Shown piece after piece: positions 6,480-26,683 of a stretch of DNA of 64,000 nucleotides. Each line of letters starts with the position of its first letter. Position 1 is the stretch's first letter. The notes under the pieces were generated by a model. That model saw only the letters and a program-made list of their open reading frames with translations. It was not told where the DNA came from and ran no database searches. The stretch is from contig JAGBIY010000064.1 in assembly GCA_017934745.1 (NCBI GenBank), forward strand, positions 114,597-178,596, given 5' to 3'. The position numbers and the translations under genes were made by a program. Origin of the DNA: Treponema sp. (GTDB lineage: Bacteria > Spirochaetota > Spirochaetia > Treponematales > Treponemataceae).

Positions 6480-9293
6480 ATGCAGTTTCTTTACAACATC
6501 ATCATCGCCCCAATCGAGCTGGTCATAGAATTTGTATTCAGTTTCTACAACGCAAAAATCGGCATTGCGGGCATAATGGGCGCAATCGTGGCGGTGAGCC
6601 TCGCCGTCAATTTTCTTGCGCTTCCGCTCTACAACATCGCGGATTCCCTGCAGGAAAAAGAGCGGAACATACAGATGGGCCTTTCAAAATGGGTAAAACA
6701 CATCAAAAAGAATTTCAAAGGCGACGAGCGTTTCATGATGCTCCAGGCCTATTACCGCGAAAACGGCTATCATCCGCTCTATGCGTTGCGCTCAAGCCTC
6801 TCGATTTTGATTGAGATTCCTTTTTTCATCGCGGCATACCAGTTTCTTTCCCATTCTACTTCGCTTCAGGGAGCGGGTTTCGCTTTTTTGCATGACCTTG
6901 GCGCGCCCGACGCTCTTGTGAAAATCTCAACGGGGGTACAGCCGTATAGTATAAATCTTCTCCCGATTTTGATGACGCTCATCAATTTTGTTTCGGGAGC
7001 AATCTACCTTAAAAAAGCGCCGCTCAAAGAAAAAATCCAGCTCTACGCACTCGCGCTTGTATTCCTTTTCATTCTTTACGACTCTCCCTCGGGCCTTGTC
7101 TGCTACTGGATTCTGAACAACACATTCTCGCTTTTCAAAAATCTAGTAAATGCAAAGGTGAAAAATCCCCGTCGACTGGTTCACCTTGTGATTTCTGGAA
7201 TTTTGTTGCTTGCAAGCATTTTTATCCTCGCAAAACCGAATTACGCGCTCGCAAAAAGACTTGCGGTTGTCGGATTTTCGATGCTTGTGGCATTGCTGCC
7301 GGTCTGCATGGGATTCGCGAGACGATTACTGAACAAGAGCGATTTTACAGAAGTTTCAACCTCACACCACGACAGCGGATTTTCGATTTTCATACTCTCC
7401 GCACTTGGTCTCGCTCTTCTTGCGGGATTTTTGCTTCCTTCGGGAATCATCGCCACAAGCCCGGTCGAGTTCTGTTTTGTGGGAAACACCGACTCTCCGC
7501 TCAGCTACATTTTGTCGAGCCTTTCGTTTTTTACGGGACTTTTCCTTTTTTGGCCGCTTGTAATCTACAAGATGTTCGGAGAAAAGGTACAGAAAGTTCT
7601 CTCGCCTTTGTGGGCTCTTATCTTCTTGCTGGCGCTTTTGAACGTCTATGTCTTCAAATACGATTACGGAAACTTCAGCATTTTCTTCCAGCTTGACGAA
7701 GCAAAATGCCTCAAAGACTACTCGGCATTCTTTACACTGCTGCCTGCAGTCGCATTTTTGGGAATCATAATTGTTTTTTGTGCAATCAAAAAATTCAATC
7801 TCAAAAAGTACGCTACGACTTTTCTTCTGGTTCTTTGCGTCGCACAAACAGGGCTTGGAATCAAAAATACTGCTAAAATCAAAAAAGAATTTGTTAAATT
7901 CGCGGAAGTCCACAAAAAAAATTCCGAACTGGAATCGGCTTCTAGCAGCGACAAAATTGAACCGATTTACCATCTTTCCCGAAAGCAGCAAAATGTAGTT
8001 GTTCTTTTCTTGGACAAGGCGATTTCATCATTTCTTCCATATATTGTGAAAGAATTTCCAGAAATGGAAGAGCAGTTTTCTGGATTCACCTATTACCCGA
8101 ACACGCTTTCGTTTGCTGGAAACACAGTAAAGGCGTCACCTTCCCTTATGGGCGGATACGAGTACACCCCGGAAAATGAAAACCTCAGACCGAATGACTT
8201 CTTGCGGGAAAAACACAACGAAGCGACGCTCGTCATGCCAAAGCTTTTTTTGGACGCAGGCTTTGACGTGACCGTGACCGACCCGCCGGCACCGAATTAT
8301 TCCTGGAAAGGGGACTTGTCGGCTTTTGAACAATATCCGGAAATTCATGTGAGTGAAGTTATCGGAAAATACAAGTCAAATTATCTTCGCCTCCATCCGG
8401 AACTTGAAAACAAGGATCTCGACAAATGCATTCGGGCAAATATGCAATCATTCACGCTGCTTGAAATCATGCCTCCTGTTTTAAGATTCACATTTTACGA
8501 TTTCGGCGATTTTTACCGTGCCGAAGTTCCGCATATTCTGTCAAGCGTGGCTGACGATGGATTCCTTTCAAACTACACTACTTTGTTTTTTATGGACAAA
8601 CTCACGGATGCTCAAAATGAAAAAGGCGCGTATCTTTTTATTGATAACGAGGCAACACATGAGTTCGCCATTCTAAAAAACAAGATTTATGAGCCAGGAC
8701 TGAACCTAAATCCAAATCTTGCAGAATGCGGAGAATATGATTTTAAATATCTGCCGGGAGTAGACGGTACTGCAAGCGATTTGGCGGCATACCACTCAAA
8801 TGCGGCTACACTGCTCCAAGTCGCAAAATGGCTCGACAAACTCAAAGAACTTTCTGTTTACGACAACACAAGAATCATAATAGTCGCAGACCACGGTGCG
8901 CCGCTCTCGCTTCCTCCGTTCCGAAACATGGAATACGGCGAGGACATAGCCCGCTACAATCCGCTTTTCATGTTCAAGGATTTTGGCTCAAGCGGAAAAC
9001 TTAAGACCGACAATTCATTCATGACGAACGCGGACACATTGATTTTAGCGACAAAAGATTTGCCTGTTTCAGAAAAAAATCCATTCACAAATAGAAAATA
9101 CTCTGATGTTGTGAACAAAAGCTCTATTCATATTCACCACATTGTTCGGCTGACCGATTTTGATGAGATAAATCCCCTCTATCTAAAAGACACAAAACTT
9201 TGGATTTTGCAGGACGAAAAATACCACACCCCGAGCTACACCGTCCACGACAACATTTTTGAAGAATCGAATTGGGAGAGAATAGTAAAATGA
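6480..9293 (+). CDS. YidC/Oxa1-like membrane domain fused to sulfatase/LtaS-like domain, copy 1
   Basis: A 937-residue fusion. Residues ~1-235 align segment by segment with the YidC/Oxa1 fold: a first conserved helix ending in LPLY, a cytoplasmic hairpin with KGDERFMM, then IEIPFFIAAYQFL and SPSGLVCYWILNN. The arginine normally in the first helix groove (5 before the Pro) is Asn44. Residues ~236-470 add about six membrane helices. Residues ~490-937 form a sulfatase/alkaline-phosphatase-superfamily domain with Asp512, nucleophile candidate Thr549, metal-ligand candidate His727 and Asp804-His805. By analogy with LtaS and MdoB it may transfer phosphoglycerol or phosphoethanolamine on the periplasmic side. 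It overlaps the next gene by 4 nt. The domains are seen; the reaction is inferred. Confidence 0.85.
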   Translation: MQFLYNIIIAPIELVIEFVFSFYNAKIGIAGIMGAIVAVSLAVNFLALPLYNIADSLQEKERNIQMGLSKWVKHIKKNFKGDERFMMLQAYYRENGYHPLYALRSSLSILIEIPFFIAAYQFLSHSTSLQGAGFAFLHDLGAPDALVKISTGVQPYSINLLPILMTLINFVSGAIYLKKAPLKEKIQLYALALVFLFILYDSPSGLVCYWILNNTFSLFKNLVNAKVKNPRRLVHLVISGILLLASIFILAKPNYALAKRLAVVGFSMLVALLPVCMGFARRLLNKSDFTEVSTSHHDSGFSIFILSALGLALLAGFLLPSGIIATSPVEFCFVGNTDSPLSYILSSLSFFTGLFLFWPLVIYKMFGEKVQKVLSPLWALIFLLALLNVYVFKYDYGNFSIFFQLDEAKCLKDYSAFFTLLPAVAFLGIIIVFCAIKKFNLKKYATTFLLVLCVAQTGLGIKNTAKIKKEFVKFAEVHKKNSELESASSSDKIEPIYHLSRKQQNVVVLFLDKAISSFLPYIVKEFPEMEEQFSGFTYYPNTLSFAGNTVKASPSLMGGYEYTPENENLRPNDFLREKHNEATLVMPKLFLDAGFDVTVTDPPAPNYSWKGDLSAFEQYPEIHVSEVIGKYKSNYLRLHPELENKDLDKCIRANMQSFTLLEIMPPVLRFTFYDFGDFYRAEVPHILSSVADDGFLSNYTTLFFMDKLTDAQNEKGAYLFIDNEATHEFAILKNKIYEPGLNLNPNLAECGEYDFKYLPGVDGTASDLAAYHSNAATLLQVAKWLDKLKELSVYDNTRIIIVADHGAPLSLPPFRNMEYGEDIARYNPLFMFKDFGSSGKLKTDNSFMTNADTLILATKDLPVSEKNPFTNRKYSDVVNKSSIHIHHIVRLTDFDEINPLYLKDTKLWILQDEKYHTPSYTVHDNIFEESNWERIVK

Positions 9294-10540
9294 CATTTCT
9301 ACCGCTTTACATAGACCCGGGCACGGGAAGCATGCTCTTCTCGCTTTTCATCGGACTTGCGACGACGGCGATTTTTGGAGCGAGGGCGCTTTCGCTAAAA
9401 ATCAAGGGCATTGTCGGACGCGGAAAGCAGACCGAACTCGACAAATCCCACCTTGGAATCGTGGTTTATTCCGACTCGAAGCGGTACTGGAACGTTTTCG
9501 GACCAATCGCGCGCGAATTTGAAAGCCGAGAACTTCCTCTCGTGTATTACACGCAAAGCCCGGACGACCCGGCGTTGAACGAAAAATTTGAATATGTGAA
9601 GGCCGAGTTCATCGGCGAAGGGAACAAGGGATTCGCAAAGCTCAATCTTTTGAACGCCGACGTATGCCTTTCCACCACGCCGGGACTCGATGTTCTCCAG
9701 TGGAAGAGGAGCAAAAACTGCAAGTTTTATGTGCATGTTCCGCACTCCCTCGACGAGATGATGGGCTACCGCATGTTCGGGCTTGATTTCTATGACTCGG
9801 TGCTTCTCACAGGAGATTTCCAGGGGGAGTACATCCGCAGAATCGAAGAGATGCGAAAGATTCCACGCAAAGAGCTTGCAACTGTGGGCTATCCGCCGAT
9901 GGACGAGCAGAAAAAAAGGCTTGACGCTATGAGAAAAACAGAAAAAACAGAGCCGACAATTCTTGTGGCTCCGAGCTGGGGAAAAGAGGCGATTCTCTCC
10001 AAATTCGGCTCAAGATTTCTGGATGCGATTAAAAAGACTGGATACAAAATCATCGTCCGCCCCCACCCGCAGACCAAGACAAGCGAAAAGGAAATGCTCG
10101 ACTCACTGATGAAGGAATTTCCAGAAAGCGAGAAGTTCAACTGGAATTTCGACAACGACAATTTCGACTGCATGAACGAAGCTTCTATTCTGATTACGGA
10201 TTTTTCAGGAATCATCTTCGACTTCGCCCTTCTCTTTGACAAGCCGCTCATCTATGCCGACACAAAATTCGATTCTGGAGTCTACGATGCCGCATGGTTC
10301 GAGGACGAAAAACTCTGGAGATTCAAGGTGCTCGAAAAAATCGGCATCCCGCTCAAAGAAGAGCAGTTTGACGACATGAAAAGCGTGATTGTAAAAGCCC
10401 TGAACGACACATCGCTCGAAGCCGGCCGGGATGAAACGCGCAAAGAGGCGTGGATGCACAGGGGCGAAAGCGCGAGGCTGATTGCGGATTATTTGATAGA
10501 AAAGCAGAAAAAAATAACTTTCAATGAGGCTACAAAATGA
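9290..10540 (+). CDS. CDP-glycerol:glycerophosphotransferase-like protein (TagB/TagF family), copy 1
   Basis: 416 residues. An N-terminal YIDPGTGSMLF segment and a membrane helix are followed by a GT-B-like glycerophosphotransferase domain. Family signatures are VRPHPQTKTSEKEM and ITDFSGIIFDFALL with a following KPLIY, the positions used by TagB/TagF to bind CDP-glycerol. The family adds glycerol-phosphate (or ribitol-phosphate) units to a lipid-linked acceptor at the inner membrane face. The ATG at 9290 overlaps the fusion protein stop (ATGA); an earlier TTG was rejected. It is paralogous to the gene at 23975, with the same N-terminal nine residues MTFLPLYID. Substrate is inferred. Confidence 0.85.
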   Translation: MTFLPLYIDPGTGSMLFSLFIGLATTAIFGARALSLKIKGIVGRGKQTELDKSHLGIVVYSDSKRYWNVFGPIAREFESRELPLVYYTQSPDDPALNEKFEYVKAEFIGEGNKGFAKLNLLNADVCLSTTPGLDVLQWKRSKNCKFYVHVPHSLDEMMGYRMFGLDFYDSVLLTGDFQGEYIRRIEEMRKIPRKELATVGYPPMDEQKKRLDAMRKTEKTEPTILVAPSWGKEAILSKFGSRFLDAIKKTGYKIIVRPHPQTKTSEKEMLDSLMKEFPESEKFNWNFDNDNFDCMNEASILITDFSGIIFDFALLFDKPLIYADTKFDSGVYDAAWFEDEKLWRFKVLEKIGIPLKEEQFDDMKSVIVKALNDTSLEAGRDETRKEAWMHRGESARLIADYLIEKQKKITFNEATK

Positions 10541-11622
10541 TAAATTTTACAGTCGGTCCTGTGCAGATGGACAAAGAGACAAGAGAACTTGGACAGAATC
10601 AGATTCCGTATTTTCGTACACCAGAGTTCTCTACAATAATGAAAGAAAACGAGAAACTCCTGTGCAGTTTTTTTGACGCGCCAGAAAATTCCAGGGTCGT
10701 CTTCATGACCGGGAGCGGAACGGCCTCGATGGAAGGCGGCGTGATGAATTTCTTCACAAAAGACGACAAGGTTCTCATCGTGAACGGAGGAAGCTTCGGA
10801 CATCGCCTTGTTGAACTTTGCGGAATCCACGGGATTCCTTTCACGGAAATAAAGCTGGATTATGGCACGCCACTTGCACAAGAAAATCTTGCGAAGTTCG
10901 AAAATGCTGGCTACACGGGATTTTTAGTTCAGCTGTGCGAGACTTCCACTGGCGTTCTCTACGACATGAACCTAATCGGGGATTTCTGCCAGCGAAACGG
11001 CATTTTCCTTTTCGTGGACGCTGTGAGCGGATTCATGGCGGACAGGTTCTCGATGAAAGAAATGCACGTGAACGCCGCTATCACAGGAAGCCAGAAAGCG
11101 CTGGCTTTGCCGCCTTCAATGAGCTTCACGATTCTTGACGAAAAAGCGATTGAACGGTGCCAGAAAATCAATCCAAGAAGCCTCTACTTCAACTATCCGA
11201 GCTACCTGAAAGACGGCGAGCGCGGTCAGACTCCGTTCACTCCGGCAGTCGGCACTCTTTTGCAGCTCAATCAAAAGCTCAAGAGGATTGAAGCTAGTGG
11301 CGGAATCGAACATCAGAACAAACTCGCAAGGGAACGCGCTGAATATTTCAGGAACGCGATAAAAGACCTGCCGTTCAAGTTGTTTTGTGCAGAAAAAGAT
11401 TCGTCGAACTGTGTTACGGCACTCTGCCCAACGAAGCCAGGAGTCAACGCGCATAAGATTTTTGAAATCATCAAGGACGAATACGGGATTTGGATTTGTC
11501 CCAACGGCGGCGACATGGCGGAAAAAGTTTTCCGGGTCGGCCATATCGGCTCAATCTCAAAAGAGGAAATCGACACGCTCGTGGACGCATTCAAGGATTT
11601 GGTAAAAAGGGGGATTCTATGA
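10537..11622 (+). CDS. Class V PLP aminotransferase (PhnW/serine-glyoxylate aminotransferase-like)
   Basis: 361 residues opening with INFTVGPVQM, like the GPG/TPGP opening of class V small-molecule aminotransferases (PhnW, SGAT). TGSGTASMEGG is the phosphate-binding segment, FVDAVSGF holds the cofactor aspartate, and ITGSQKALALPPS holds the Schiff-base lysine. PhnW converts phosphonoacetaldehyde to 2-aminoethylphosphonate, but no PEP mutase or decarboxylase gene is in the window, so the substrate is open. It overlaps both neighbours by 4 nt and sits before a cytidylyltransferase, suggesting it makes the amino-bearing head group that is then activated. Confidence 0.8.
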   Translation: MINFTVGPVQMDKETRELGQNQIPYFRTPEFSTIMKENEKLLCSFFDAPENSRVVFMTGSGTASMEGGVMNFFTKDDKVLIVNGGSFGHRLVELCGIHGIPFTEIKLDYGTPLAQENLAKFENAGYTGFLVQLCETSTGVLYDMNLIGDFCQRNGIFLFVDAVSGFMADRFSMKEMHVNAAITGSQKALALPPSMSFTILDEKAIERCQKINPRSLYFNYPSYLKDGERGQTPFTPAVGTLLQLNQKLKRIEASGGIEHQNKLARERAEYFRNAIKDLPFKLFCAEKDSSNCVTALCPTKPGVNAHKIFEIIKDEYGIWICPNGGDMAEKVFRVGHIGSISKEEIDTLVDAFKDLVKRGIL

Positions 11623-12080
11623 TAGCAGGAAAAACAGTCGTGTACACAAGCGGAACATTCGACATGCTCCACGCGAACCACATAAAGATGATTGAGTACG
11701 CGCGCTCACTCGGAGACATACTGATTGTTGGCGTGAACACGGACGAGCTTGTGGAGAGCTACAAGAGTCAGCCGATTATTCCATTCGACGAAAGAATCGC
11801 CCTCGTGAAGGCCTTGAAGTACCCGGACATCGTGATTCCCCAGCGTTCGCTCAACCACGCCGACAAGGTGAAGAAACTGAATTTCGATGTCTTTGTCGTG
11901 GGCGACGACTGGGCTGGAAAATACGACTATCTCAAAGAACAGGGCGTGGACGTGGTGTATTTTCCTTACGGAGCGGGAGTCAGCTCGACCAACCTGAAGC
12001 AGCGCATTTACGAGCGCTACGAGAAGCTGCAGCGCGAGGCGAACAGCCACTTTCCACAGGATGCTGACACGGGAAAGTGA
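11619..12080 (+). CDS. TagD-like cytidylyltransferase with altered motifs
   Basis: A 153-residue nucleotidyltransferase-alpha/beta-phosphodiesterase-fold protein, close in length and layout to glycerol-3-phosphate cytidylyltransferase TagD (GTFDMLHANH near the start, DVFVVGDDWAGK in the middle). Two signatures differ from TagD: HxGH reads HANH, and the RTEGIST nucleotide-binding motif reads YGAGVSST, losing the arginine. It probably activates a phospho-alcohol with CTP, but the substrate may not be glycerol-3-phosphate. The ATG at 11619 overlaps the aminotransferase stop; a longer in-frame start at 11490 lies inside the upstream gene and was rejected. It is the last gene of block A. Confidence 0.78.
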   Translation: MIAGKTVVYTSGTFDMLHANHIKMIEYARSLGDILIVGVNTDELVESYKSQPIIPFDERIALVKALKYPDIVIPQRSLNHADKVKKLNFDVFVVGDDWAGKYDYLKEQGVDVVYFPYGAGVSSTNLKQRIYERYEKLQREANSHFPQDADTGK

Positions 12081-12151
12081 TTTTTACCGCCAGCATACAG
12101 ATTGCAAAACAGAGGCCGACAAGGGAACAGAACAGGTCAAGGAAGCAGTTT

Positions 12152-13705
12152 TCAATACTGCGCGTACATAAATCCCGCATCGCCTGCGCTGAAGCTGAAG
12201 CTCAGGATTATCAGGAGCAGCGGCACATAGTAGCAGAGCCAGCGCACGGCGATGTTCTTTTTCTGGATGGACGCATACACGTCAACCTTGTTTTCCTTCA
12301 AAAGGCTCACCACAAAAACAATCATGCACCCCAAAGCAATCAGCACAATGTGGCTCTGGAAATCCGAGATGTTGCCCAAGATTTGGTTCATGTAGTCCTT
12401 CGAGGCGAGAACGAGCGGATTGCCGAACCGCGTGAATGAATTTCTGAGGTAGGCGAAGGACTTCGGCACATCAACGATTCTGTCAAAATACCAGCCAATG
12501 TTCACGATGACGAATGTACGAACGATTTGAAAAAGACGCCAGCCTCGACTTTTTGCATTCACATGGAATTTTTCGTTCACCTTCTCGAAAAGAGGCTTAA
12601 AAATGTCGCTCAAGGCAATCACAAGTCCGTTGTACAAACCCCAGACAAAAAAGTGCAGTTCAGGCCCATGCCAAATGCCGACCAGCATGAAGACCAAAAT
12701 GTTCGCTATGCAAGCGGGGAGCGTTCTGCCGAAATGCTTTCCGAAGCGGGCGGTGCACCACTTGCCCAGATTCTGCGTGATTTTTGTCAGCGCGAAGGGA
12801 TAGAAGACGTAATCGCGCATCCACTGTCCGAGACTGATGTGCCAACGCTGCCAGAAATTCGCAAGGCTTGTCGAAAAATACGGCTGCTTGAAATTCTGCG
12901 CCATCTTTACGCCGAACAGCTCCGCGATTCCAAGCACCATGTCCGTACCGCCTGAAAAATCCGCATACTGATAGGCCGAGTACATCAAGATTCCAGCCAC
13001 AAGCACGCAGCCCGGATAATCAGTGTAAACGCCGTCAAAAATACTGCCCACATGATTCACCAGCAAATCAGCGACAAGGTATTTTTTCAGTGCGCCGTAG
13101 AGAATCAGCATGACGCCGTGCTTGATATTCTCGAAGTCAAACACGCGCTCCGCCTTTAGCTGGACGCCTGTCTGGTTGTAGCGGTTTATCGGCCCCAAAA
13201 CAAGCTGTGGAAAAAACGACACGAAGACGAAGTATTTGAAGAAATTATGCTCGCGCTCGTATTTTCCGTTGTAGATGTCCATGAAGTATCCGATTGACGA
13301 GAGCGTATAGTAGGAAATACCGAGGGGAAGAAGGAGAGTCTTTGAACCGACAAGGACGCGCCAGTATTTGAGATAGAAGAGGACTCCCACGTTCAGCGCG
13401 AGCATTCCGAGCAGAACGAGCCGTTTTCTCGTCTGAACCCGTTTTTTCTCAATCTTGAAGTCGTCCTTTGGAAGTTCAGCTTTTTTCGACTTGAGGGCGA
13501 CATTGAAATCGGAAATGAATTTCGCTCCGAAGAAGGTTACCAGGGAACTAAAAAGGATGAACGCCAGATTCCCAACACCGCTGCAGGCATAAAAAACAGT
13601 GTTTGAAAGCAAAAGCACAATCCACTGGAAACGCTTTGGAGCCAAATAATAGAAAAGAAGAGAAATCAAAAGAAAAATAGCGAATGTGAAAGAAAGAAAA
13701 TTCAT
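12152..13705 (-). CDS. MBOAT-family O-acyltransferase (DltB/AlgI-like)
   Basis: A 517-residue polytopic membrane protein. It carries the MBOAT signatures: FFPQLVLGPINRY at ~164-176, NFWQRWHISL (His289) and the invariant catalytic histidine in GIWHGPELHF (His346). MBOATs such as AlgI, PatA and DltB move acyl groups across the membrane to an extracellular acceptor, working with an SGNH or DltD-type partner, which is encoded 15 nt upstream here. The gene runs against block A and its end lies 71 nt from the end of the TagD-like gene, with no clear terminator in between. Expected role: acetylation or D-alanylation-like decoration of the local polymer. Confidence 0.9.
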   Translation of the reverse strand: MNFLSFTFAIFLLISLLFYYLAPKRFQWIVLLLSNTVFYACSGVGNLAFILFSSLVTFFGAKFISDFNVALKSKKAELPKDDFKIEKKRVQTRKRLVLLGMLALNVGVLFYLKYWRVLVGSKTLLLPLGISYYTLSSIGYFMDIYNGKYEREHNFFKYFVFVSFFPQLVLGPINRYNQTGVQLKAERVFDFENIKHGVMLILYGALKKYLVADLLVNHVGSIFDGVYTDYPGCVLVAGILMYSAYQYADFSGGTDMVLGIAELFGVKMAQNFKQPYFSTSLANFWQRWHISLGQWMRDYVFYPFALTKITQNLGKWCTARFGKHFGRTLPACIANILVFMLVGIWHGPELHFFVWGLYNGLVIALSDIFKPLFEKVNEKFHVNAKSRGWRLFQIVRTFVIVNIGWYFDRIVDVPKSFAYLRNSFTRFGNPLVLASKDYMNQILGNISDFQSHIVLIALGCMIVFVVSLLKENKVDVYASIQKKNIAVRWLCYYVPLLLIILSFSFSAGDAGFMYAQY

Positions 13706-13720
13706 TGTCTGCCCCCCGCC

Positions 13721-15046
13721 CTAGAACGCCGCGAAATTTTCCATGCAGTCGTTCTGCTTGATTCCGTCAAGATAACTTACGACCCGGATTTTGCCGGATT
13801 TTCCCAAAGGGAGGCTGACGGTCGTGCCTCCAGAATCTTTCGCAAGAACTGTCTCCTCCCCGCCCGATATCGCGTACACATCGTAGGTGATGCGACCAGG
13901 GTCCGCAATGTTCGTCACTGGCGTGATTTCAAGCGTCTTTTTGTCACCGCTTTCAATCATGTACAGCCCGAAAACCCTTTCGCCGACATTTTTCATTTTT
14001 TCCGCATAGGACGGATAGAAATACTTTTCAACCACATTCTCTTCCTTATATTTTTCCGAAAAGAAATCGCAGAATACGTCCGTCCATTTGTACACGCCCT
14101 TTTTACTGAGATGGTTGTCGTCGTGATAGTCGGAATCAGAAAGAAAAAGCAGTTCGGGCTTCGCAAGGTTGAAATCATAATAGGCAAAACCATGCTCGTT
14201 GATGAAATTCTTGCAAAAACCATAGTACGAATCATAGTTTCCCTTTTGGTTCAGGTAAAAATCGCTGTTCGGCATGGCGTAGAAAATCAATTCGACACCA
14301 TTTTCCCGACAAAGCGATATGATTTTTTCGACAGTGCCCTTCCAGTCATCGCTCACCCGCTCAACGGGGATTGCCGACTCCAGTTTGTAGTCAGAAAAAC
14401 CGCCATCGGGGATTTCCTCGAAATCAAGGACACAGCCACGCCCGGCATATTCGGAACCGTCATCGTGGTACGAATACTCAAAATAGCTTCCGTCCGCGAC
14501 AGAAGCCAGCTTCCGCGCGATTTTCTTCGGATTCAGAGTTATAAGCTTGTCCTTGCCGATTGGCAGAAAGGAATTCAAATAATGGCTAGGCGCGGAACAA
14601 TGAAGCAGAAAATCATATTTCACGCCAAAATCACGCAGGTTCTCGCTTACGATGTACTCGGACGTCAAGCCGGTGCGCTCAGAAAAAGCCGGTGCGCAAG
14701 CAACAGCAAAATCAAGCTCCAAAAAGACTTTCTCTATTTTGTAGAGCTTCAACGCCTGGCGCAAAATCGCGTAAGTTCCATCAATTTTCTGGGAAGGAGT
14801 CCCTGTATTGAAGACGCTTTTTCCGAAACGCACACCCGCGGTGTTGGCTTCCACTCCGTGGGAAACGTGGGAAGCCCCGCATATCAAGTAGTCGATTCTC
14901 TCCTGCGCGTAAAACTCGTGGAAAAGGGCCCGTGCATACGAATTCGAATCGTCTCGGAAAAAGAACGACGCGCACACTGAAAGCAAGAAAAAGAACACAA
15001 AGAACAGAAAGATTTTCAGCGGAATTTTCACTTTTACAGACATCAT
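13721..15046 (-). CDS. SGNH/DltD-like exported acyl-transfer partner
   Basis: 441 residues. One N-terminal membrane anchor (residues ~8-28) is followed by an SGNH-type domain with a serine in YLICGASH (Ser59) and a C-terminal Asp-His pair in YHDDNHLSKKG (around residue 310), so the catalytic set looks complete. The last ~100 residues form an extra beta-rich domain. DltD and AlgX/AlgJ proteins play this role beside MBOAT enzymes, receiving or placing the acyl group on a cell-envelope polymer. It is the first gene of a two-gene minus-strand operon and is divergent from fusion copy 2. No D-alanine ligase (DltA) or carrier gene is visible. Confidence 0.8.
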   Translation of the reverse strand: MMSVKVKIPLKIFLFFVFFFLLSVCASFFFRDDSNSYARALFHEFYAQERIDYLICGASHVSHGVEANTAGVRFGKSVFNTGTPSQKIDGTYAILRQALKLYKIEKVFLELDFAVACAPAFSERTGLTSEYIVSENLRDFGVKYDFLLHCSAPSHYLNSFLPIGKDKLITLNPKKIARKLASVADGSYFEYSYHDDGSEYAGRGCVLDFEEIPDGGFSDYKLESAIPVERVSDDWKGTVEKIISLCRENGVELIFYAMPNSDFYLNQKGNYDSYYGFCKNFINEHGFAYYDFNLAKPELLFLSDSDYHDDNHLSKKGVYKWTDVFCDFFSEKYKEENVVEKYFYPSYAEKMKNVGERVFGLYMIESGDKKTLEITPVTNIADPGRITYDVYAISGGEETVLAKDSGGTTVSLPLGKSGKIRVVSYLDGIKQNDCMENFAAF

Positions 15047-15154
15047 TAAGAAAATATAACGGAAAGCGACAGTTTCATAAAGGCATCTTAAAAAGATACG
15101 GAGAAAACAGAAAATACAGAAACATACATGAAAACAATTTGTTGTTTTTGGTGT

Positions 15155-15160
15155 AAAATA
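15155..15160 (+). promoter_or_regulatory. Possible -10 element (TGTAAAAT) for block C
   Basis: TAAAAT directly preceded by TG, 32 nt before the ATG at 15193 in the 146-nt divergent gap between the SGNH gene and fusion copy 2. No convincing -35 is seen. The same TGTAAAATAGAA string occurs before the gene at 29172. GGAG about 8 nt before the ATG is the ribosome-binding site. Confidence 0.35.
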
Positions 15161-15192
15161 GAAAACTCATTCAAAAACATGGAGAAAGACGA

Positions 15193-17889
15193 ATGTTTTT
15201 ATACAATCTGGTTATATATCCGATAAAGCAGCTCCTTGAGATTTGCTACATATTTTTCAGCGAGGTGACTTCAAGCCCCGGAATCTCCGTCATAGCGTTG
15301 AGTTTCGCGGTAACTCTGTGCTGTCTTCCGCTGTACATAGTCGCGGAAAGATGGCAGGAAAAGGAAAGGCTCATCCAGAAGAGGCTCAAGCCCGGAATCG
15401 AGAGGATAAAGAAGGCTTTCAAAGGCGACGAGCGTTTCATGATGACGACGACCTTCTACAAACAGAACCGCTACCACCCGATGATGGCTCTCAGATCCTC
15501 GTTCGGGCTTTTGATACAGATTCCTTTCTTCATCGCGGCATACTCTTTTCTGTCCCACCTGCAGGCATTGAAGGGGCAGCCCTTCCTTTTCATCAGCGAC
15601 ATGGGATCTCCTGATGCCATGTTCAGCATAGGAGGGTTCAAAATCAACATACTCCCGATAGCGATGACCATCATAAACTGCGTTTCAGGAGCGATTTATT
15701 CACACGGCCACGACAGCATTCGCGAGAAAATCCAGATTTACGTCTCGGCGGCGCTCTTTCTCGTCCTGCTCTACGCATCCCCTGCGGGTCTCGTCATGTA
15801 TTGGACGATGAACAATCTTCTCTCGCTCGTTAAAAACGTCTTCTACAAGATGAAGAATCCGCTCAAGACCTTCTATTTTGTGGCTTCGTTCTTCAGCCTG
15901 ATTGGAATTTTCGCCTCCATATTCGCATTGAAGGAGGCGAAAATGGAGCTGAGAACCATGTTCTCTCTGCTTTGCGTTGCCGTCATACTCTCCCCCTTCT
16001 TCGTAAAAGCGGTGGTCACATTCGCTGACAAATTCCTAAAGGACATAACGGAAAAAACAGGAAGGAGGGCGGCAGTTTTCGTACTGTCTGCACTTCTTCT
16101 GGCGGTTCTCACCGGCTTCACGATTCCTTCAATGCTCATCGAAAGCGAAGTTCAGGAATTCAGCTTCGTCGACAATTACAAATCGCCGTTCATCTTTCTT
16201 TGGACGCCGTTCTTCCAGGCATTGGGGCTTTACGTTTTCTGGCCGACGTGCTTCTACGCACTGTTCGGTACAAGAATAAAGAAACTGCTCACGGTTGCGA
16301 TGGTCTTCATGGCCACATACGCGCTGATAAACAACTTCGCTTTCTCAGGTTCGTACGGGCCGCTGCAGCCGAATCTGGATTTCATGGAAGCCCAGTTCTT
16401 CAAAGACACATTGCCTAGAATCATCGTCAACTCTATTCTTGCGGTACTGACGTTCACGGCGACCGTTCTCCTGCTCACGAAAAAATCGTATCCGCTGATT
16501 CCATACTCGCTCATACTGCTGTTCGGTCTCACCACGGTCTCAATCAGGAATGTCGCCATAATATCCAGTTCGTACAGCAAAATGACACCCCCAAAAACTA
16601 TGGCATCGATTGAGCCCGTCTACCACCTTTCAAAGACGGGGAAGAACGTAATAGTCTTCATGCAGGACAGGCTATTCTCACCACTCATAGACGAAGTATT
16701 CGAGGAGAAGCCGGACTTGGCGGAACATTTCGACGGCTTCACGTTCTATCCGAACACGGTTTCGCTGGGTCACCTGACCATGCTTGGAGTGCCAGGAATT
16801 TTCGGCGGCTACAGCTACACGCCGGCGGAAAGCAACAAGAGAACGGACAAATCGATAAAGCAGAAGCACAACGAAGCTATTCTGTCCATGCCGGTGAATT
16901 TCCACGAGGCGGGATTCGACGTCACAGTGTCCGACATGCCGTACGAGAATTTCGACAAAGAGCCTCTCACATCTATGTACGAAGATTACCCGTACATAAA
17001 CAGGATTTGGACGCAGGGAGTCTATTCTGACTACTGGTACAAGCAGAACGGAATCGAGAAGACATCCTACATAAGCGACAGCATAAAACACAATTTCATA
17101 ATGTTCGGAATCTTCAAGACGTTTCCACCTGTTCTCCGCAGGCTGGTCCACCACAAACGCTGGTGGAACACGGACGGAAGAAAGGACCATTTCTCCCAGT
17201 TCATCGACAACTACAGCTGTCTGATTTATTTCCCCCAGCTTTTCGACGGAGACGCCGAAAAAAGCACGTTCACGATGATAGACAATCTCGCCACGCACGA
17301 ACCGAGTCTTCTCCAGTGGCCCGACTATGTTCCCGTAAAGGAAGTAACGCAGTTCGGGGAGAGCAAATGGTCGAGGAACGCCCAGTACAACACGCAGGCA
17401 GGAACTCTCAGGTGCTACGCGAAATTCTTCGACTATCTGAAGGAAAACGGGCTATACGACAACACCAGAATCATCATAGTCTCCGACCACGGAGCCAGCA
17501 TAGAGACCGGGAAATTCAACAGCGACGAGATGCCGTTTTTGAAGGAGCACGTCACCGCAAGCCTCCTTGTGAAAGACTTCAACGACAGGACTCCAAGTCC
17601 GGACGGAGTGCACCTCAGAAAGGACATGAGATTCATGACGAACGCCGACACCCCGGCTCTTGCATTGGAAGGAATCAACGATGAAGCAGAGAACCCCTTC
17701 ACAAACATGAAGTACAAACTATCGGCCGAGGAGAAAAAAGATTACACGAAAATCTGCAAGCCGCAAGCGGAAAGCACAAGGAACAGGGAAAACAAGAAGT
17801 ATACAATTCCAAACGATGTCTGGTGGACGGTAAGCGACGACATCTACAAAGACGAGAATTGGAAGCAGATTTTTCCATTCGGAAAGTAG
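15193..17889 (+). CDS. YidC/Oxa1-like membrane domain fused to sulfatase/LtaS-like domain, copy 2
   Basis: 898 residues with the same three-part layout as copy 1: YidC-like domain (~1-230), about six extra helices (~230-455) and a periplasmic alkaline-phosphatase-superfamily domain (~470-898). The groove arginine position is Thr41. The sulfatase site keeps Asp492, Thr529 (again exactly 37 residues after the Asp), His702 and Asp765-His766. The YidC part retains the hairpin KGDERFMM and IQIPFFIAAYSFL. A CotH gene follows after 12 nt with a strong AGGAGG-type site. Likely role: an extracytoplasmic phospho-substituent transferase for the local polymer. A 28-nt stretch at about 15416-15443 matches copy 1 exactly. 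Confidence 0.85.
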   Translation: MFLYNLVIYPIKQLLEICYIFFSEVTSSPGISVIALSFAVTLCCLPLYIVAERWQEKERLIQKRLKPGIERIKKAFKGDERFMMTTTFYKQNRYHPMMALRSSFGLLIQIPFFIAAYSFLSHLQALKGQPFLFISDMGSPDAMFSIGGFKINILPIAMTIINCVSGAIYSHGHDSIREKIQIYVSAALFLVLLYASPAGLVMYWTMNNLLSLVKNVFYKMKNPLKTFYFVASFFSLIGIFASIFALKEAKMELRTMFSLLCVAVILSPFFVKAVVTFADKFLKDITEKTGRRAAVFVLSALLLAVLTGFTIPSMLIESEVQEFSFVDNYKSPFIFLWTPFFQALGLYVFWPTCFYALFGTRIKKLLTVAMVFMATYALINNFAFSGSYGPLQPNLDFMEAQFFKDTLPRIIVNSILAVLTFTATVLLLTKKSYPLIPYSLILLFGLTTVSIRNVAIISSSYSKMTPPKTMASIEPVYHLSKTGKNVIVFMQDRLFSPLIDEVFEEKPDLAEHFDGFTFYPNTVSLGHLTMLGVPGIFGGYSYTPAESNKRTDKSIKQKHNEAILSMPVNFHEAGFDVTVSDMPYENFDKEPLTSMYEDYPYINRIWTQGVYSDYWYKQNGIEKTSYISDSIKHNFIMFGIFKTFPPVLRRLVHHKRWWNTDGRKDHFSQFIDNYSCLIYFPQLFDGDAEKSTFTMIDNLATHEPSLLQWPDYVPVKEVTQFGESKWSRNAQYNTQAGTLRCYAKFFDYLKENGLYDNTRIIIVSDHGASIETGKFNSDEMPFLKEHVTASLLVKDFNDRTPSPDGVHLRKDMRFMTNADTPALALEGINDEAENPFTNMKYKLSAEEKKDYTKICKPQAESTRNRENKKYTIPNDVWWTVSDDIYKDENWKQIFPFGK

Positions 17890-17901
17890 AGCGGAGGAAA
17901 A

Positions 17902-19173
17902 ATGGGAATTCAACGTCATTCAACATTTTTCACAGCGTTCTTCTCTGCCTGCACGCTGATAATTGCCTTCAGCGCGTATGCGAGTTTGTCCTCTAATATA
18001 ACATTGCAGTCCGTCCTCGAGAAGGGGCTTCCCGTGCTCGCGATAGACACGGAGGGCGGGAAAAAAATAAAGTCGAGAGACGAATATCTGAAAGCGACAT
18101 ATCTCTATTTTGAAGCAGGTTCATCATCCGCCTCTCTCGGCGGAAGCTGCAAAATACGAGGAAGAGGCAACACGACATGGGAGACGAGGGAACTTTACAA
18201 GAAGCCGTATCTTCTGAAACTGGACGAGGCGGCTTCATTTTCAAGTTTTCCTGCGGCCGAAAAGTGGGTCTTGATGGCGAACACGGCAGACAAGACGCAG
18301 CTAAGGAATTCCTACGCCACTCATTTGTCAAAAACAGCATTTAGCGGAGGAATTTGGCAGTCTTCGTGCAGTTTCATAAATCTTTTCGTAAACGGAAGCT
18401 ACAACGGCCTGTACGCAATCACGGAAAAAATCGAGATGACGCCCGAAAGGATTCCGCTCGAAGAAGAGAAAGGCTCGTTCCTGTTCGAGGTGAACACAAG
18501 GCAGGACCAGGACTGGAATTTCCGCACGAAAAACGGAGTGCCGTTCAGCATACGAACGTCTCTCACGCCTGAAAAAAGACGGTTCGTGGCACAGCAGGAA
18601 AAGATACAGAAGGCAGAGTGCATTCTTTTCGGGGAAGAATTCACGGACGGGGAAAGAGGCTGGAGGACAGTTCTCGACGAAGTGAGTTTCGCCGACTGGT
18701 ACCTTTTGAACGAGTTGACGAAGAACCACGACGCAAAATTCCAATCATCCTGCTACATGTACTACAACAGCGAGAATGGAAAAATCCACATGGGGCCGGC
18801 TTGGGATTTCGACATATCGTGCGGGAACATAAGCTGGGACGACTGCGACAAGCCTGAAGGCTTCTGGGTGGCGAAGGCCAGCTGGTACGAACGACTGTTC
18901 GAGGACCCGAAGTTCGTTGAGTTCGTCCAAAAAAGATGGACAGAGGAAAGGGGAAAAATCGAAGAAAGCCTGAACTGGTTGGACGAACAAGCGGAAAATC
19001 TTGAGGACGAAATAATGCTCAACGATGCCGTGTGGAAAAACATCGGCCGGAGACAGTGGCCCCACGCCCCCGGATGGCGAAGTAGAAAAACACACGGCGA
19101 TGAGATAACGTATATGAAAGATTGGCTGAAAAAGCGAATTGCTTGGTTGGACGAAGAGCTTTTCAAACTATAA
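17902..19173 (+). CDS. CotH-family atypical kinase, exported or membrane-anchored, copy 1
   Basis: 423 residues with an N-terminal hydrophobic signal or anchor (~10-28). CotH signatures are KIRGRGNTTW, KKPYLLKL, KWVLMANTADKTQLRN, YNGLYAITEKIE, KNHDAKFQ and the metal-binding MGPAWDFDISCGN. CotH proteins are ATP-dependent kinases of unusual fold, first known from spore coats, but also present beside polyphosphate-polymerase genes in many bacteria. Here it lies between YidC-sulfatase copies 2 and 3 with gaps of 12 and 15 nt, so it belongs to the same operon and probably the same process. How an exported kinase-fold protein would get ATP is unclear, and its substrate is unknown. Confidence 0.88.
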   Translation: MGIQRHSTFFTAFFSACTLIIAFSAYASLSSNITLQSVLEKGLPVLAIDTEGGKKIKSRDEYLKATYLYFEAGSSSASLGGSCKIRGRGNTTWETRELYKKPYLLKLDEAASFSSFPAAEKWVLMANTADKTQLRNSYATHLSKTAFSGGIWQSSCSFINLFVNGSYNGLYAITEKIEMTPERIPLEEEKGSFLFEVNTRQDQDWNFRTKNGVPFSIRTSLTPEKRRFVAQQEKIQKAECILFGEEFTDGERGWRTVLDEVSFADWYLLNELTKNHDAKFQSSCYMYYNSENGKIHMGPAWDFDISCGNISWDDCDKPEGFWVAKASWYERLFEDPKFVEFVQKRWTEERGKIEESLNWLDEQAENLEDEIMLNDAVWKNIGRRQWPHAPGWRSRKTHGDEITYMKDWLKKRIAWLDEELFKL

Positions 19174-19188
19174 AAAGAAGGAACTGAC

Positions 19189-21912
19189 ATGAATTTTCTC
19201 TACACACTGATAATCTACCCTCTCTATTCGATAATCGAGGTCGCATACACGCTCGTGGACAAGGTGACGAGCAACGAAGGAATCGCCGTCATAGGAGTCA
19301 GCGTCGCTATCACCCTGCTCTGCCTTCCCCTCTATGCCGTAGCCGAGCACTGGCAGGAAGTCGAGCGCGACAAGCAAAACAAGATGAAGAGCGGACTCGA
19401 CCGCATCAAAAAGGCGTTCTCAGGCGACGAACGCTACATGATGACGACCACCTTCTACAAGCAGCACCACTACAGCCCGATTATGGGACTGCGCTCTTCG
19501 TTCGGCCTCCTGATCCAGATTCCGTTCTTCCTAGCGGCATACGCGTACCTCTCGCACCTCACGGACTTGCAGGGGGAATCGTTCCTGTTCATACGCGACA
19601 TGGGAAGCCCGGACGTATTGTTCTCGATAGGCTCGTTCAAGGTGAACGTCCTTCCAATCGCGATGACGCTCATCAACTGCGTGTCTGGAATCATCTACTC
19701 GAAGGGGCACGGACTCCGCGAGAAAGTGCAGATTTTCGGCATGGCGGCGATTTTCTTGGTCGTCCTCTACAACTCTCCGGCGGGACTCGTCCTCTACTGG
19801 ACGTTCAACAACATCTTCTCGCTCGTGAAGAACGTGTTCTACAAGCTCAAGAACCCGCTCAAGTCGTTCTGGATTTTCTGCTGCATAGTCTGCGTTCCAG
19901 TCTTCATCTTCACGATGTTCTTCTTCAAGACGAAGACCGCTTACAAGCTCATCTTCGCTTTTGCGGTGGCGGCCGTCTACGCGCTTCCATTCATGCTCAA
20001 AGGAACGAAAGCGGTCTTCCACAAATTCCTGACCCCGATTTTCGAGCACGGAAAGACAAGGACGACAATCTACCTTCTTTCGTGCGCCCTCCTCTTCATA
20101 CTCGCGGGATTCACAATCCCCACTTCGCTCATTTCGTCGTCGCCAGTGGAATTCTCAGGAATCGGCTCGAACCCAGACCCGCTCGGCTACGTCCAGCTCA
20201 CATTGATGCAGGCGGCGGGATTCTTCCTCTTCTGGCCAATCTGCGTCTATTTTCTGTTCAACAGGAAAGTCCAGTCCATACTCGCGGCCGCGATGGCGTT
20301 CCTCTCGATTTCCGCGCTGCTGAACTCGTTCGTCTTCATGCTCGACTACGGAGACGTTTCGGCGACGCTCACGTTCTTGAATTCGGTGGACTTCAAGCCG
20401 CTGTCGGCAATATCGCTCCTGAACGTTCTCGTACATCTGGCGGTTCTCGCATTGGTCGCGCTGACAATCGGAAAACTCAACGGAAGAGTCTTCACATACT
20501 CGTTCGCGATAGTCTGCTTCGCGATGGTTGCGTTCGGCTTCATGAACATCGGAACTATAAGAAGCGAATACAAGGCGTTCGTCGCGAGCGGAAACCTGAA
20601 CGACGTGGAGATAAAGCCGATTTTCCATCTGTCCAAGGACAAGCCGAACGTCGTCCTCTTCATGCTCGACCGCTCGGAAAGCCAATATATAGAAGAGATG
20701 CTCAAGGAAGACCCGAAATTGAAGGACAGCTTCTCAGGCTTCACGTTCTACCCGAACACGGTCTCGTTCAACGGCCACACTTTCATGGGCGCGCCCCTGG
20801 TCTACGGCGGCTACGAGTACCAGCCGCTTGAGATGAACAAGAGAAAGGACGAGCTCCTCTACAAAAAAACGAACGAGGCTCTCCTGATGCTGCCGAGAAT
20901 CTTCACGGAGCAGGCTGATTTCCACGCGGCGATAACGGATCCCTCGTGGGCGAACTATTCAGCCTACGCCGATTTGACAATCACCGACGGCTACGAAAAA
21001 ATCGACGGCTTCCAGACAATCGGAAAATACTCGACGGCATGGTACAAAAGGCAGAGTGGAGACAACAAACTCGACAACACGGACGAAATCCTCAAGCACA
21101 ACCTGATTGTCTTCAGCATTTTCAGGGAGTGCCCAATTGTGCTGAGGGAAATCGTCTACCTGAAGGGGAAATACTGGAACTCGAACGACAACGTAACGTC
21201 GTACACGAACGTGATAAACAACCTTGCGCCGCTGGAATTTCTTCCAGAACTCACAGATTTCAAAAGCGAGAACGGCTCATACGTCTGCATGGTCAACGAA
21301 CTCACCCACTCAAGCATCTTCATGCAGGCCCCCGACTACACGCCGGTCGAGAAGGTGACGGACTACGGAACGTCGGCGTTCAGGAAGGAGGAGGCCTACC
21401 ACACGAACATGGCGGCAATCAAGCGCGTGGCGAAATGGCTGGACTATCTCAAAGCGAACGGAGTCTACGACAACACGAGAATCATCATCGCGGCCGACCA
21501 CGGAAGGGCGACGACAGAGAAATGCATAGAGAAGGACGACGAGCTCGACGACCTCCTTGCCGGCGACAGGTACAAGGGACGCGGCCATTTCCATCCGCTT
21601 CTTCTGGTGAAGGACTTCAACGAAAGCGGAGAGTTCAAGGAGGACATGACATTCATGACGAACGGAGACGTGCCTTCCATCGCGCTCAAGGGACTTGTCG
21701 AAAAGCCGGTCAATCCGTTCACCAAAAAGGAGATTCCTTTGGACACCACGGAAATCAAGAAGGACGGAGTCGTCGTCACCCCGAACGACCTGCACCAGGC
21801 ATGGCTCTACAAGGACTGGTACACCTACCCCGTCAGGGACGACCAATGGTGGCGGGTCAAGGGCAGCATCTTCAAGGCTTCGAGCTGGAGCCGGGAGAAA
21901 ATCAAAGATTGA
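19189..21912 (+). CDS. YidC/Oxa1-like membrane domain fused to sulfatase/LtaS-like domain, copy 3
   Basis: 907 residues, third copy of the fusion. The YidC-like part (~1-230) has LCLPLY, SGDERYMM, IQIPFFLAAYAYL and SPAGLVLYWTFNN, with Thr42 at the groove-arginine position. Extra helices run from ~230 to 465. The sulfatase domain keeps Asp494, Thr531 (37 residues later), His707 and Asp770-His771, and has an added GHFHP segment before LLLVKDF not seen in the other two. It follows CotH by 15 nt with a GAAGGA ribosome-binding site. Codon use is more C-ending than in copy 1. Same inferred periplasmic transferase role, possibly with a different substituent. Confidence 0.85.
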   Translation: MNFLYTLIIYPLYSIIEVAYTLVDKVTSNEGIAVIGVSVAITLLCLPLYAVAEHWQEVERDKQNKMKSGLDRIKKAFSGDERYMMTTTFYKQHHYSPIMGLRSSFGLLIQIPFFLAAYAYLSHLTDLQGESFLFIRDMGSPDVLFSIGSFKVNVLPIAMTLINCVSGIIYSKGHGLREKVQIFGMAAIFLVVLYNSPAGLVLYWTFNNIFSLVKNVFYKLKNPLKSFWIFCCIVCVPVFIFTMFFFKTKTAYKLIFAFAVAAVYALPFMLKGTKAVFHKFLTPIFEHGKTRTTIYLLSCALLFILAGFTIPTSLISSSPVEFSGIGSNPDPLGYVQLTLMQAAGFFLFWPICVYFLFNRKVQSILAAAMAFLSISALLNSFVFMLDYGDVSATLTFLNSVDFKPLSAISLLNVLVHLAVLALVALTIGKLNGRVFTYSFAIVCFAMVAFGFMNIGTIRSEYKAFVASGNLNDVEIKPIFHLSKDKPNVVLFMLDRSESQYIEEMLKEDPKLKDSFSGFTFYPNTVSFNGHTFMGAPLVYGGYEYQPLEMNKRKDELLYKKTNEALLMLPRIFTEQADFHAAITDPSWANYSAYADLTITDGYEKIDGFQTIGKYSTAWYKRQSGDNKLDNTDEILKHNLIVFSIFRECPIVLREIVYLKGKYWNSNDNVTSYTNVINNLAPLEFLPELTDFKSENGSYVCMVNELTHSSIFMQAPDYTPVEKVTDYGTSAFRKEEAYHTNMAAIKRVAKWLDYLKANGVYDNTRIIIAADHGRATTEKCIEKDDELDDLLAGDRYKGRGHFHPLLLVKDFNESGEFKEDMTFMTNGDVPSIALKGLVEKPVNPFTKKEIPLDTTEIKKDGVVVTPNDLHQAWLYKDWYTYPVRDDQWWRVKGSIFKASSWSREKIKD

Positions 21913-23974: not shown

Positions 23975-25234
23975 ATGACATTTTTACCACTCTACATAGA
24001 CCCCGGCACGGGTTCGATGCTGTTCTCGATACTCATCGGAGCCGCCGCCACCCTCTTCTTCCTCGCGAAAGCCCTTCTTTTGAAGCTCAAGCTCGTCTTC
24101 GCGGGAAAGAAAGGGGCGCAGGAGGACAAATCGTACAAGAAATACGTCGTCTACTGCGAGGACAAGCGGTACTGGACAGTCTTCCAGCCGGTCATAGAAG
24201 AATTCGAGAAGCGCAAAATCGAGTTGACATACTACACCGGAAGCAAGGACGACGCAGTATTCGAAAAGAACTACGAGTTCATAAAGAGCGAGTTCATAGG
24301 AACCGGGAACGTCGCCTACGCGAAGCTCAACATGCTCTCGGCGGGAATCGTTCTCATGACGACTCCCGGAATCCAGGTCTACCAGCTAAAGCGCAGCAAG
24401 AACGTGAAGCACTACAGCCACATCTTCCACTCGTGCACCGACTCCACCATGTACAGGCTCTTCGGCTTGGACTATTTCGACTCGGTGCTAATGACGGGCG
24501 ACTACCAGGCGGACGACATTCGGCTGCTTGAGAAACAGAGGGAGCTTCCCGCGAAGGAGCTTGTGACGGTAGGCTGCACATATCTCGACGTACTCAAGGA
24601 GAAGATGGCCGCGATACCGGAAGAGGAGAACCACGAATTCACTGTCCTCGTCTCTCCGTCGTGGGGAAAGAGCGCGCTCCTTGGACTCTACGGAGAAAAG
24701 CTCCTCGACCCGCTCGTGAAAAGCGGCATGAAGGTCATCGTGCGCCCGCATCCGCAGAGCCGCATCTCCGAGAAGGAAATGCTCGACCGCCTGCACGAAC
24801 GCTACAAGGATGCATCGAACCTTTCGTGGGACAACGAGAGGGACAACATCTACTCGCTCAAGAAAGCGGACATAATGATTTCGGATTTTTCGGGAATCGT
24901 GTACGACTACACGTTCCTCTGCGACAAGCCGGTCATGTACGCGAACGCCGAGATGGATCTGCTTCCTTACGACATCTACGACACCGGGCACCAGCCGTGG
25001 GCGGTCACGACGCTGCAGAAAATCGGAATTCCGATAAAGGAAGAGGATTTTGAAAACATAGCGGAAGTGATAAAGAACGCCTCCGACAGCCCGAAACTCG
25101 CGAAGCTCCGAGCGCACTACAAGGCGGAGGCGTGGCAGCACATCGGCGAGGCCGGAAAGCGCACCGCCGACTACATGATTTCCAAAATGGAAGAAATCGA
25201 AAGGAACGAAAAGGGGACGGAATCTAGTAAGTGA
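23975..25234 (+). CDS. CDP-glycerol:glycerophosphotransferase-like protein (TagB/TagF family), copy 2
   Basis: 419 residues, clearly paralogous to the gene at 9290. It has the same YIDPGTGSMLF N-terminus with one membrane helix, then VRPHPQSRISEKEM and ISDFSGIVYDYTFL followed by DKPVMY. It would transfer glycerol-phosphate or a related CDP-activated unit to a membrane acceptor. The ATG lies 3 nt after the fused transferase stop, with GGAG inside the end of that gene. It ends block C, and its last 11 nt overlap the end of the convergent DUF4956 gene, leaving no room for a separate terminator. Confidence 0.85.
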   Translation: MTFLPLYIDPGTGSMLFSILIGAAATLFFLAKALLLKLKLVFAGKKGAQEDKSYKKYVVYCEDKRYWTVFQPVIEEFEKRKIELTYYTGSKDDAVFEKNYEFIKSEFIGTGNVAYAKLNMLSAGIVLMTTPGIQVYQLKRSKNVKHYSHIFHSCTDSTMYRLFGLDYFDSVLMTGDYQADDIRLLEKQRELPAKELVTVGCTYLDVLKEKMAAIPEEENHEFTVLVSPSWGKSALLGLYGEKLLDPLVKSGMKVIVRPHPQSRISEKEMLDRLHERYKDASNLSWDNERDNIYSLKKADIMISDFSGIVYDYTFLCDKPVMYANAEMDLLPYDIYDTGHQPWAVTTLQKIGIPIKEEDFENIAEVIKNASDSPKLAKLRAHYKAEAWQHIGEAGKRTADYMISKMEEIERNEKGTESSK

Positions 25235-25904: not shown

Positions 25905-25924
25905 AAAAACTCCTTGATTTTGTT

Positions 25925-26641: not shown

Positions 26642-26644
26642 ATA

Positions 26645-26680: not shown

Positions 26681-26683
26681 ACC

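Follow-up and report, generated by a model that had tools for sequence, protein, structure and literature searches.

YidC/Oxa1 domains joined to alkaline-phosphatase-superfamily domains in Treponema: a fusion family linked to TagF/TarL-like transferases and headgroup-activation genes

Three fusion genes at one Treponema locus

The window analysed here, a stretch of 64,000 nucleotides from a Treponema sp. genome (assembly GCA_017934745.1, contig JAGBIY010000064.1, positions 114,597 to 178,596 of the forward strand), holds three plus-strand genes for large proteins in which a YidC/Oxa1 domain, further membrane helices and an alkaline-phosphatase-superfamily domain are joined in a single chain: copy A (6480..9293; 937 residues), copy B (15193..17889; 898 residues) and copy C (19189..21912; 907 residues). 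Two genes on the same strand encode membrane-anchored TagF/TarL-like (PF04464) transferases, which we call GLY. The first, GLY1 (9290..10540), has an N-terminal YIDPGTGS motif and its ATG overlaps the stop codon of copy A (ATGA); the second is GLY2 (23975..25234). A fourth copy of the fusion (FUS) lies 7.5 kb upstream of the window; all four fusions of the source genome are on one contig and its one normal YidC is encoded elsewhere.

An earlier note on this DNA had described the three proteins as YidC-like at the N-terminus and as members of the alkaline phosphatase superfamily at the C-terminus, and both assignments were upheld in searches with hidden Markov models. PF02096 matched all three window copies above its cut-off (77-79 bits against 35) and all 29 fusion family members scanned, while a profile of 29 fusion YidC domains (from 45 prepared stretches; alignment A5) found seven PDB sequences at E <= 0.01, all of them YidC, with a best value of 5e-13. 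The C-terminal domains of copies A, B and C scored 17.6, 41.4 and 20.3 bits with PF00884 (cut-off 25, so two lie below it). At E <= 0.001 this model had three matches in the source genome, every one of them a fusion copy, the copy at 6480 missing the threshold. Across the family, 42 of 48 C-terminal domains singly matched PF00884 at E <= 0.001, and a profile made from these 48 (of 60 prepared stretches; alignment A4) found 22 PDB sequences at E <= 0.01, including sulfatases, phosphonate monoester hydrolases and LtaS. In a copy of the T. denticola type (locus L088) Pfam shows PF02096 alone, yet the sequence aligns and the active-site residues are kept.

The AlphaFold2 model of copy B (mean pLDDT 92) agrees with these assignments. 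Its YidC/Oxa1 domain (residues 1-218; 15193..15846) consists of an amphipathic helix (2-26) and five transmembrane helices with a cytoplasmic hairpin at about residues 52-91. The modelled helices span residues 29-75, 78-91, 96-121, 153-170, 176-194 and 198-218 and line up with the match between the sequence and YidC structures, so that the five transmembrane helices and the helical cytoplasmic hairpin after the first of them, by which YidC/Oxa1 proteins are recognised, are present in the fusion. Seven more membrane helices follow, two linking helices (residues 223-281; 15859..16035) and a group of five (residues 289-462; 16057..16578), and then the extracytoplasmic domain with the alkaline-phosphatase fold (residues 470-898; 16600..17886), which the five helices directly precede. 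Helices were first counted by eye in overlapping windows, and the count was then compared with this model. Residues 283-898 align with PbgA/YejM (6xlp); the last five helices and the C-terminal domain thus align jointly with that protein, and the fusion can be described as a YidC domain placed ahead of a whole EptA/LtaS-like enzyme. YidC was not among the 50 matches listed in two structure searches with the copy B model, and this is no evidence against a YidC-like domain because the phosphatase-fold domain fills the list. A longer form of the fusion, with an open frame of about 1000 codons and an apparent insert after the YidC domain, was seen in genomes of genus g50 (for example G481) beside shorter copies, with up to five matches per genome; loci L090 and L091 hold the shorter form.

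Active site, groove and relationships of the fusion family

Relatives were collected by a genome scan with two YidC-hairpin peptides, and the best 80 of 303 matches were kept. These gave 78 loci, 49 in Spirochaetes and 29 in Clostridia going by the titles of their records, and with the window the list of genomes sharing the fusion and its surroundings comprises 79 loci in which GLY and headgroup genes recur. The loci contain 135 fusion genes or pieces of them. The family alignment held 124 sequences of at least 850 residues with the fourth copy of the source genome (L085) and 123 without it; 103 of the 112 non-redundant fusions went into the structure alignment, L085 and eight others being left out.

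Five residues mark the active site of the C-terminal domain. In copy B numbering D492, T529, H702 and D765 are invariant in 123 fusion members and H766 is present in 122 of the 123; all eight further copies, taken from genomes of T. denticola-type and low-GC spirochaetes and from the fourth locus of the source genome, have the same five. T529 is the presumed nucleophile. The roles of nucleophile and metal ligand given to T529, D765 and H766 come from the context of the alignment and from the motifs of LtaS, not from a metal-bound structure. The threonine in the nucleophile position speaks for an LtaS/EptA-like transferase or phosphodiesterase. Sulfatases use a cysteine or serine nucleophile that is converted to formylglycine, and a sulfatase function of this type was rejected, the position being threonine in 123 of 123 members and in 8/8 of the further copies.

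It is the YidC domain that is the most conserved part of the fusion: mean pairwise identity among the 123 members is 0.588 there, 0.391 in the phosphatase domain and 0.278 across the middle helices. The hairpin from which the search peptides were taken stands at 0.535, no higher than the entire YidC domain. In the groove, at the position that we align with R366 of E. coli YidC, the fusions carry N, T, S or Q; R or K occurs in none of the 123 (one gap) and in none of the 49 in the YidC tree set. Normal YidC proteins have K or R there in 8/10 cases and N in two clostridial ones; the positive groove residue, which the fusions lack, is therefore not a strict mark of the YidC/Oxa1 family. In a tree made without L097, from which a wrong fragment had been extracted, and L101, a very long branch, the fusion YidC domains group in a single clade (SH-aLRT 97) separate from the normal YidC proteins of the genomes compared; the tree with these two rows requires two changes. 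A separate normal YidC was found in all ten genomes checked, and this rules out the fusion as the only YidC of the cell.

The fusion occurs in gut and oral spirochaetes and in some clostridia. Of the 99 genomes in this Treponema genus, 75 carry it, the source genome included; the genus also contains the genomes of T. zioleckii, T. berlinense and T. bryantii. With up to three candidates scored per genome, it was present in 68 of 296 Spirochaetota genomes (20 of 138 genera) and in 2 of 299 genomes of the phylum to which the Butyrivibrio carrier belongs, both being carriers already known. The fusion tree requires two changes between Spirochaetes and Clostridia. Copy A shares 37% identity with B and with C, and for each of the three copies a closer relative exists in another genome (49%, 77% and 79% identity), which excludes a recent local triplication.

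The GLY transferases and the headgroup genes

GLY1 and GLY2 score 45.5 and 32.0 bits with PF04464 (cut-off 22.1) and are the sole matches to this model in the source genome at E <= 0.001; both genes lie beside fusions, which bears out the association with glycerophosphotransferase genes that the earlier note had proposed. The catalytic part of GLY matches TarL (8va1; E 4e-4). The proteins are about 415 residues long, the YIDPGTGS sequence at the start of the N-terminal helix is invariant in 64 of 64, and mean pairwise identity is 0.953 at residues 7-18 against 0.39-0.55 beyond residue 40.

The pairing of GLY with the fusion is widespread. GLY is present in 59/79 loci, a headgroup-activation label in 46/79 and either in 64/79, where labels were assigned by single-sequence phmmer at E <= 1e-8; these counts are lowered because many contigs are short, and the 46 may include sugar nucleotidyltransferases because LicC-like and HddC-like nucleotidyltransferases cross-match. 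GLY is the next same-strand gene downstream for 40 of the 135 fusions (13 end at a contig edge), and 61 of 65 genes in the GLY tree have a fusion within two genes. Among the 99 genomes of the genus, 71 carry both, 23 neither, 4 FUS alone and 1 GLY alone (Fisher p 2e-17, not corrected for kinship). With each GLY assigned the clade of its neighbouring fusion, the GLY tree requires 5 changes, against 27.4 on shuffles. Identity between the two window proteins is 46%. GLY2 shares 61-65% identity with four GLYs from other genomes that have non-A fusions as neighbours and 44-47% with four that accompany A-type fusions.

In the window two cassettes accompany the pair. One consists of a class V aminotransferase (10537..11622, plus strand; nearest NCBIfam model PhnW-AepZ, 179.1 bits, below the cut-off of 360.8) and a TagD-like cytidylyltransferase (11619..12080, plus strand; nearest NCBIfam model glycerol-3-phosphate cytidylyltransferase, 114.3 bits, below 165.4). 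The other is a 664-residue protein (21977..23971, plus strand) in which a LicC-like cytidylyltransferase is joined to a HisC/CobD-like pyridoxal-phosphate (PLP) domain that reaches 213.7 bits against a cut-off of 276.55 for its nearest NCBIfam model. In Campylobacter, ethanolamine phosphate can be the product of a HisC/CobD-like PLP enzyme. Recurrent neighbours in other loci are phosphoenolpyruvate (PEP) mutase with a cytidylyltransferase domain, phosphonopyruvate-decarboxylase-like proteins, GDP-heptose-type genes, and LicC-like domains fused with a class V aminotransferase, a HisC/CobD-like or a choline-kinase-like domain. A modular series of the LicC-like proteins is seen in L044:6516-8351, L082:6794-8581 and window 21977-23971, with class V aminotransferase, choline-kinase-like and HisC/CobD-like partners. 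The kind of cassette changes at least 14 times on the tree of the 52 fusions with one kind nearby (shuffled mean 20.2, minimum 13), so that FUS and GLY look like a common device with exchangeable headgroup cassettes. The GDP-heptose-type genes (GHMP kinase, GmhA-like SIS and HddC-like), found near fusions in L043, L044, L049, L051, L062, L074, L079 and L081, hint at a heptose-containing acceptor.

A link to phosphonates is seen in relatives, among them the T. denticola type. The LicC-aminotransferase of L044 matches 6pd1 with 914 bits and its counterpart in genome G565 aligns with 6pd1 over 616 of 616 residues (1407 bits); we take this entry to be Tde1415, the PntC-AEPT whose structure Rice et al. 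2019 determined. In G565 a PEP mutase, a decarboxylase, PntC-AEPT, an ABC-2 exporter, GLY and FUS all lie within 1,455,650-1,482,350. T. denticola cells gave 31P signals consistent with phosphonates, and PntC of this organism has been solved (PMC6697681).

Further genes complete the surroundings of the fusions. On the minus strand between GLY1 and copy B are an MBOAT O-acyltransferase gene (12152..13705), whose label was seen in 11/79 loci, and a gene (13721..15046) for a protein without a Pfam match, perhaps an exported DltD- or AlgX-like partner of the MBOAT protein, whose label was seen in 10/79; the window is counted in both. A CotH-type kinase gene lies between copies B and C (17902..19173, plus strand). 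Genes for a DUF4956 membrane protein, a VTC domain protein and a CotH kinase stand side by side at 25224-28027, a familiar set of neighbours. Directly 5' of copy A, the gene at 5237-6388 encodes a protein with a sub-threshold HipA_C match (24.9 bits against 30.5). At the fourth copy, the upstream region (L085:1770-7070) holds an MBOAT-like gene split over two open frames, followed by genes for an AMP-binding enzyme and for a protein like PLP decarboxylases or racemases, perhaps a dlt-like cassette; the AMP-binding label was found near fusions in 7/50 spirochaete loci.

A possible headgroup relay and its relation to known systems

These observations suggest to us, tentatively and at somewhat less than even confidence, that FUS is an extracytoplasmic transferase of phospho- or phosphono-headgroups which is paired with the membrane-anchored GLY in a relay where a lipid-linked donor passes by way of the YidC-like domain. 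Cytoplasmic enzymes would make a headgroup linked to cytidine monophosphate (CMP) or cytidine diphosphate (CDP); in the relatives this might be 2-aminoethylphosphonate (AEP) or a choline- or ethanolamine-like alcohol, and in the source genome more probably an amino alcohol or a glycerol-like group. GLY, anchored by the YIDPGTGS helix, would move the headgroup onto a membrane lipid or lipid-linked acceptor at the inner face, the YidC-like domain would let this polar-headed intermediate cross the membrane, and the EptA/LtaS-like half of FUS would take the headgroup onto its threonine and hand it to a surface polysaccharide outside. GLY looks like an enzyme of the cytoplasmic side that uses a CDP- or CMP-headgroup, FUS looks like one that acts on phospho- or phosphono-esters outside, and both accompany headgroup genes; a membrane-bound headgroup intermediate would be the simplest way to need both proteins. 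Lipid scrambling in liposomes has been shown for E. coli YidC and other Oxa1 proteins (PMC10491306), and this makes the YidC-like domain a natural candidate for the crossing. The earlier note had proposed a dedicated polymer-modifying machine. Gene context over the 79 loci supports the machine, its function being a prediction; the headgroup need not be glycerol phosphate, since related loci carry AEP or LicC/LicA-like activation genes.

The main rival to a lipid-linked relay is a serious though unlikely one, in which FUS is an EptA/LtaS-like transferase whose YidC-like domain docks or inserts the N-terminal helix of GLY to form one inner-outer complex through which no lipid passes. The N-terminus of GLY, a short tail and one helix with a positive inner end, is of the N-out/C-in single-helix type that YidC handles, and docking would also explain why conservation in GLY peaks at the invariant YIDPGTGS motif and why GLY and FUS clades match; against it, some fusions have no GLY neighbour, and a complete and strongly conserved YidC domain seems to us excessive for one helix. 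Improbable, in our judgement, is the alternative that ordinary phosphatidylglycerol or phosphatidylethanolamine serves FUS as the source of phosphoglycerol or phosphoethanolamine while GLY separately modifies the polymer inside from CDP-headgroups. The C-terminal half of FUS resembles LtaS, EptA/MCR and PbgA, phospholipids are the donors of LtaS and EptA, and GLY is absent near some fusions; this explanation leaves both the YidC domain and the association of FUS with GLY and headgroup-activation cassettes unaccounted for. That the YidC-like domain is a working insertase whose phosphatase-fold partner decorates the membrane or surface proteins it inserts is very improbable, for all the clear PF02096 match and the five YidC helices with their cytoplasmic hairpin, given that the recurrent neighbours are headgroup and polysaccharide genes and that each of the ten genomes checked has its separate YidC.

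Several findings weigh against the lipid-linked relay. FUS could use an ordinary phospholipid as donor, and the loss of the positive groove residue is only suggestive because two of ten normal YidC proteins also carry N. The whole-chain Foldseek superposition with PbgA is loose (TM-score 0.22/0.32, root-mean-square deviation 16.1), and the relatives are a sample drawn by hairpin peptides. Pairing with GLY is not universal: no GLY lies within some 6 kb of two fusion loci in a low-GC spirochaete, 4 of the 99 genomes in the genus have FUS without GLY, and copy B adjoins CotH, not GLY. The GLY tree has a few exceptions, and GLY1 of the window is a long branch without a starred placement in it. The exporter in the T. 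denticola-type locus indicates that the polymer there may be finished inside. PEP mutase (PF13714) had no match in the source genome, which is 96% complete, and matched in 11/14 control genomes; home-made AEP as the headgroup is thus unsupported in the source organism, the phosphonate link is drawn from relatives, and the window cassettes must serve another headgroup or use AEP from outside. The aminotransferase, cytidylyltransferase and HisC-like domain of the window all lie below the cut-offs of their nearest models. Literature on Treponema lipoteichoic-acid-like glycolipids and on serine-phosphate decarboxylase yielded nothing decisive.

On a broader view of the lipid-linked relay, which we find possible but on balance doubtful, a protein of the Oxa1/YidC superfamily would have turned from an insertase into a conveyor of lipid-linked headgroups fused to the enzyme that uses them, working with GLY as a two-protein relay fed by exchangeable cassettes and supplying the missing transfer step of the Pnt pathway in T. 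denticola and its relatives. Phosphonates, phosphocholine and similar groups form part of bacterial surface coats. The Pnt steps following C-P bond formation have been called enigmatic, and the nucleotidyl step was then identified (PMC6697681). FUS and GLY are concrete candidates for the steps after it, and they stand in the locus of a cultured organism, T. denticola. If the YidC-like domain does pass lipids, it would be a natural biosynthetic use of the lipid-scrambling activity of insertases.

Among the literature searched, no title or abstract opening described a fusion of YidC with the alkaline phosphatase superfamily. Rice et al. 2019 name LicD-like phosphotransferases or glycosyltransferases near AEP genes (PMC6697681); the words YidC and sulfatase have no occurrence in the main text of that paper, where GLY was not looked for. 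A list of proteins co-precipitated with MCR-1 includes YidC (PMC7868338), a weak connection that we have not used as evidence.

The fusion shares with the YidC/Oxa1/Alb3 insertases (PF02096) the five-helix core, the cytoplasmic hairpin and the N-terminal amphipathic helix, and differs from them in its seven extra helices, its phosphatase-fold domain and its recurrent headgroup-gene neighbours; its uncharged groove residue and separate clade set it apart from normal YidC. With LtaS, EptA/MCR and PbgA/YejM it shares five transmembrane helices followed by an extracytoplasmic alkaline-phosphatase fold with a conserved Thr and Asp/His, but in the fusion a YidC domain and two linking helices come first, and it is tied to CDP- and CMP-headgroup genes. 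The first metal-ligand position is Asp in the fusion and Glu in LtaS and EptA. GLY resembles the TagF/TarL CDP-glycerol and CDP-ribitol phosphotransferases in its above-cut-off PF04464 match and its similarity to TarL, and is distinguished by its length and by its invariant N-terminal membrane helix, a CDP-alditol activity being putative. From the Pnt (CMP-AEP) and Lic (CDP-choline) pathways the same activation enzymes adjoin FUS and GLY in the relatives: PEP mutase, decarboxylase-like proteins, PntC-AEPT, and LicC-like and kinase-like domains.
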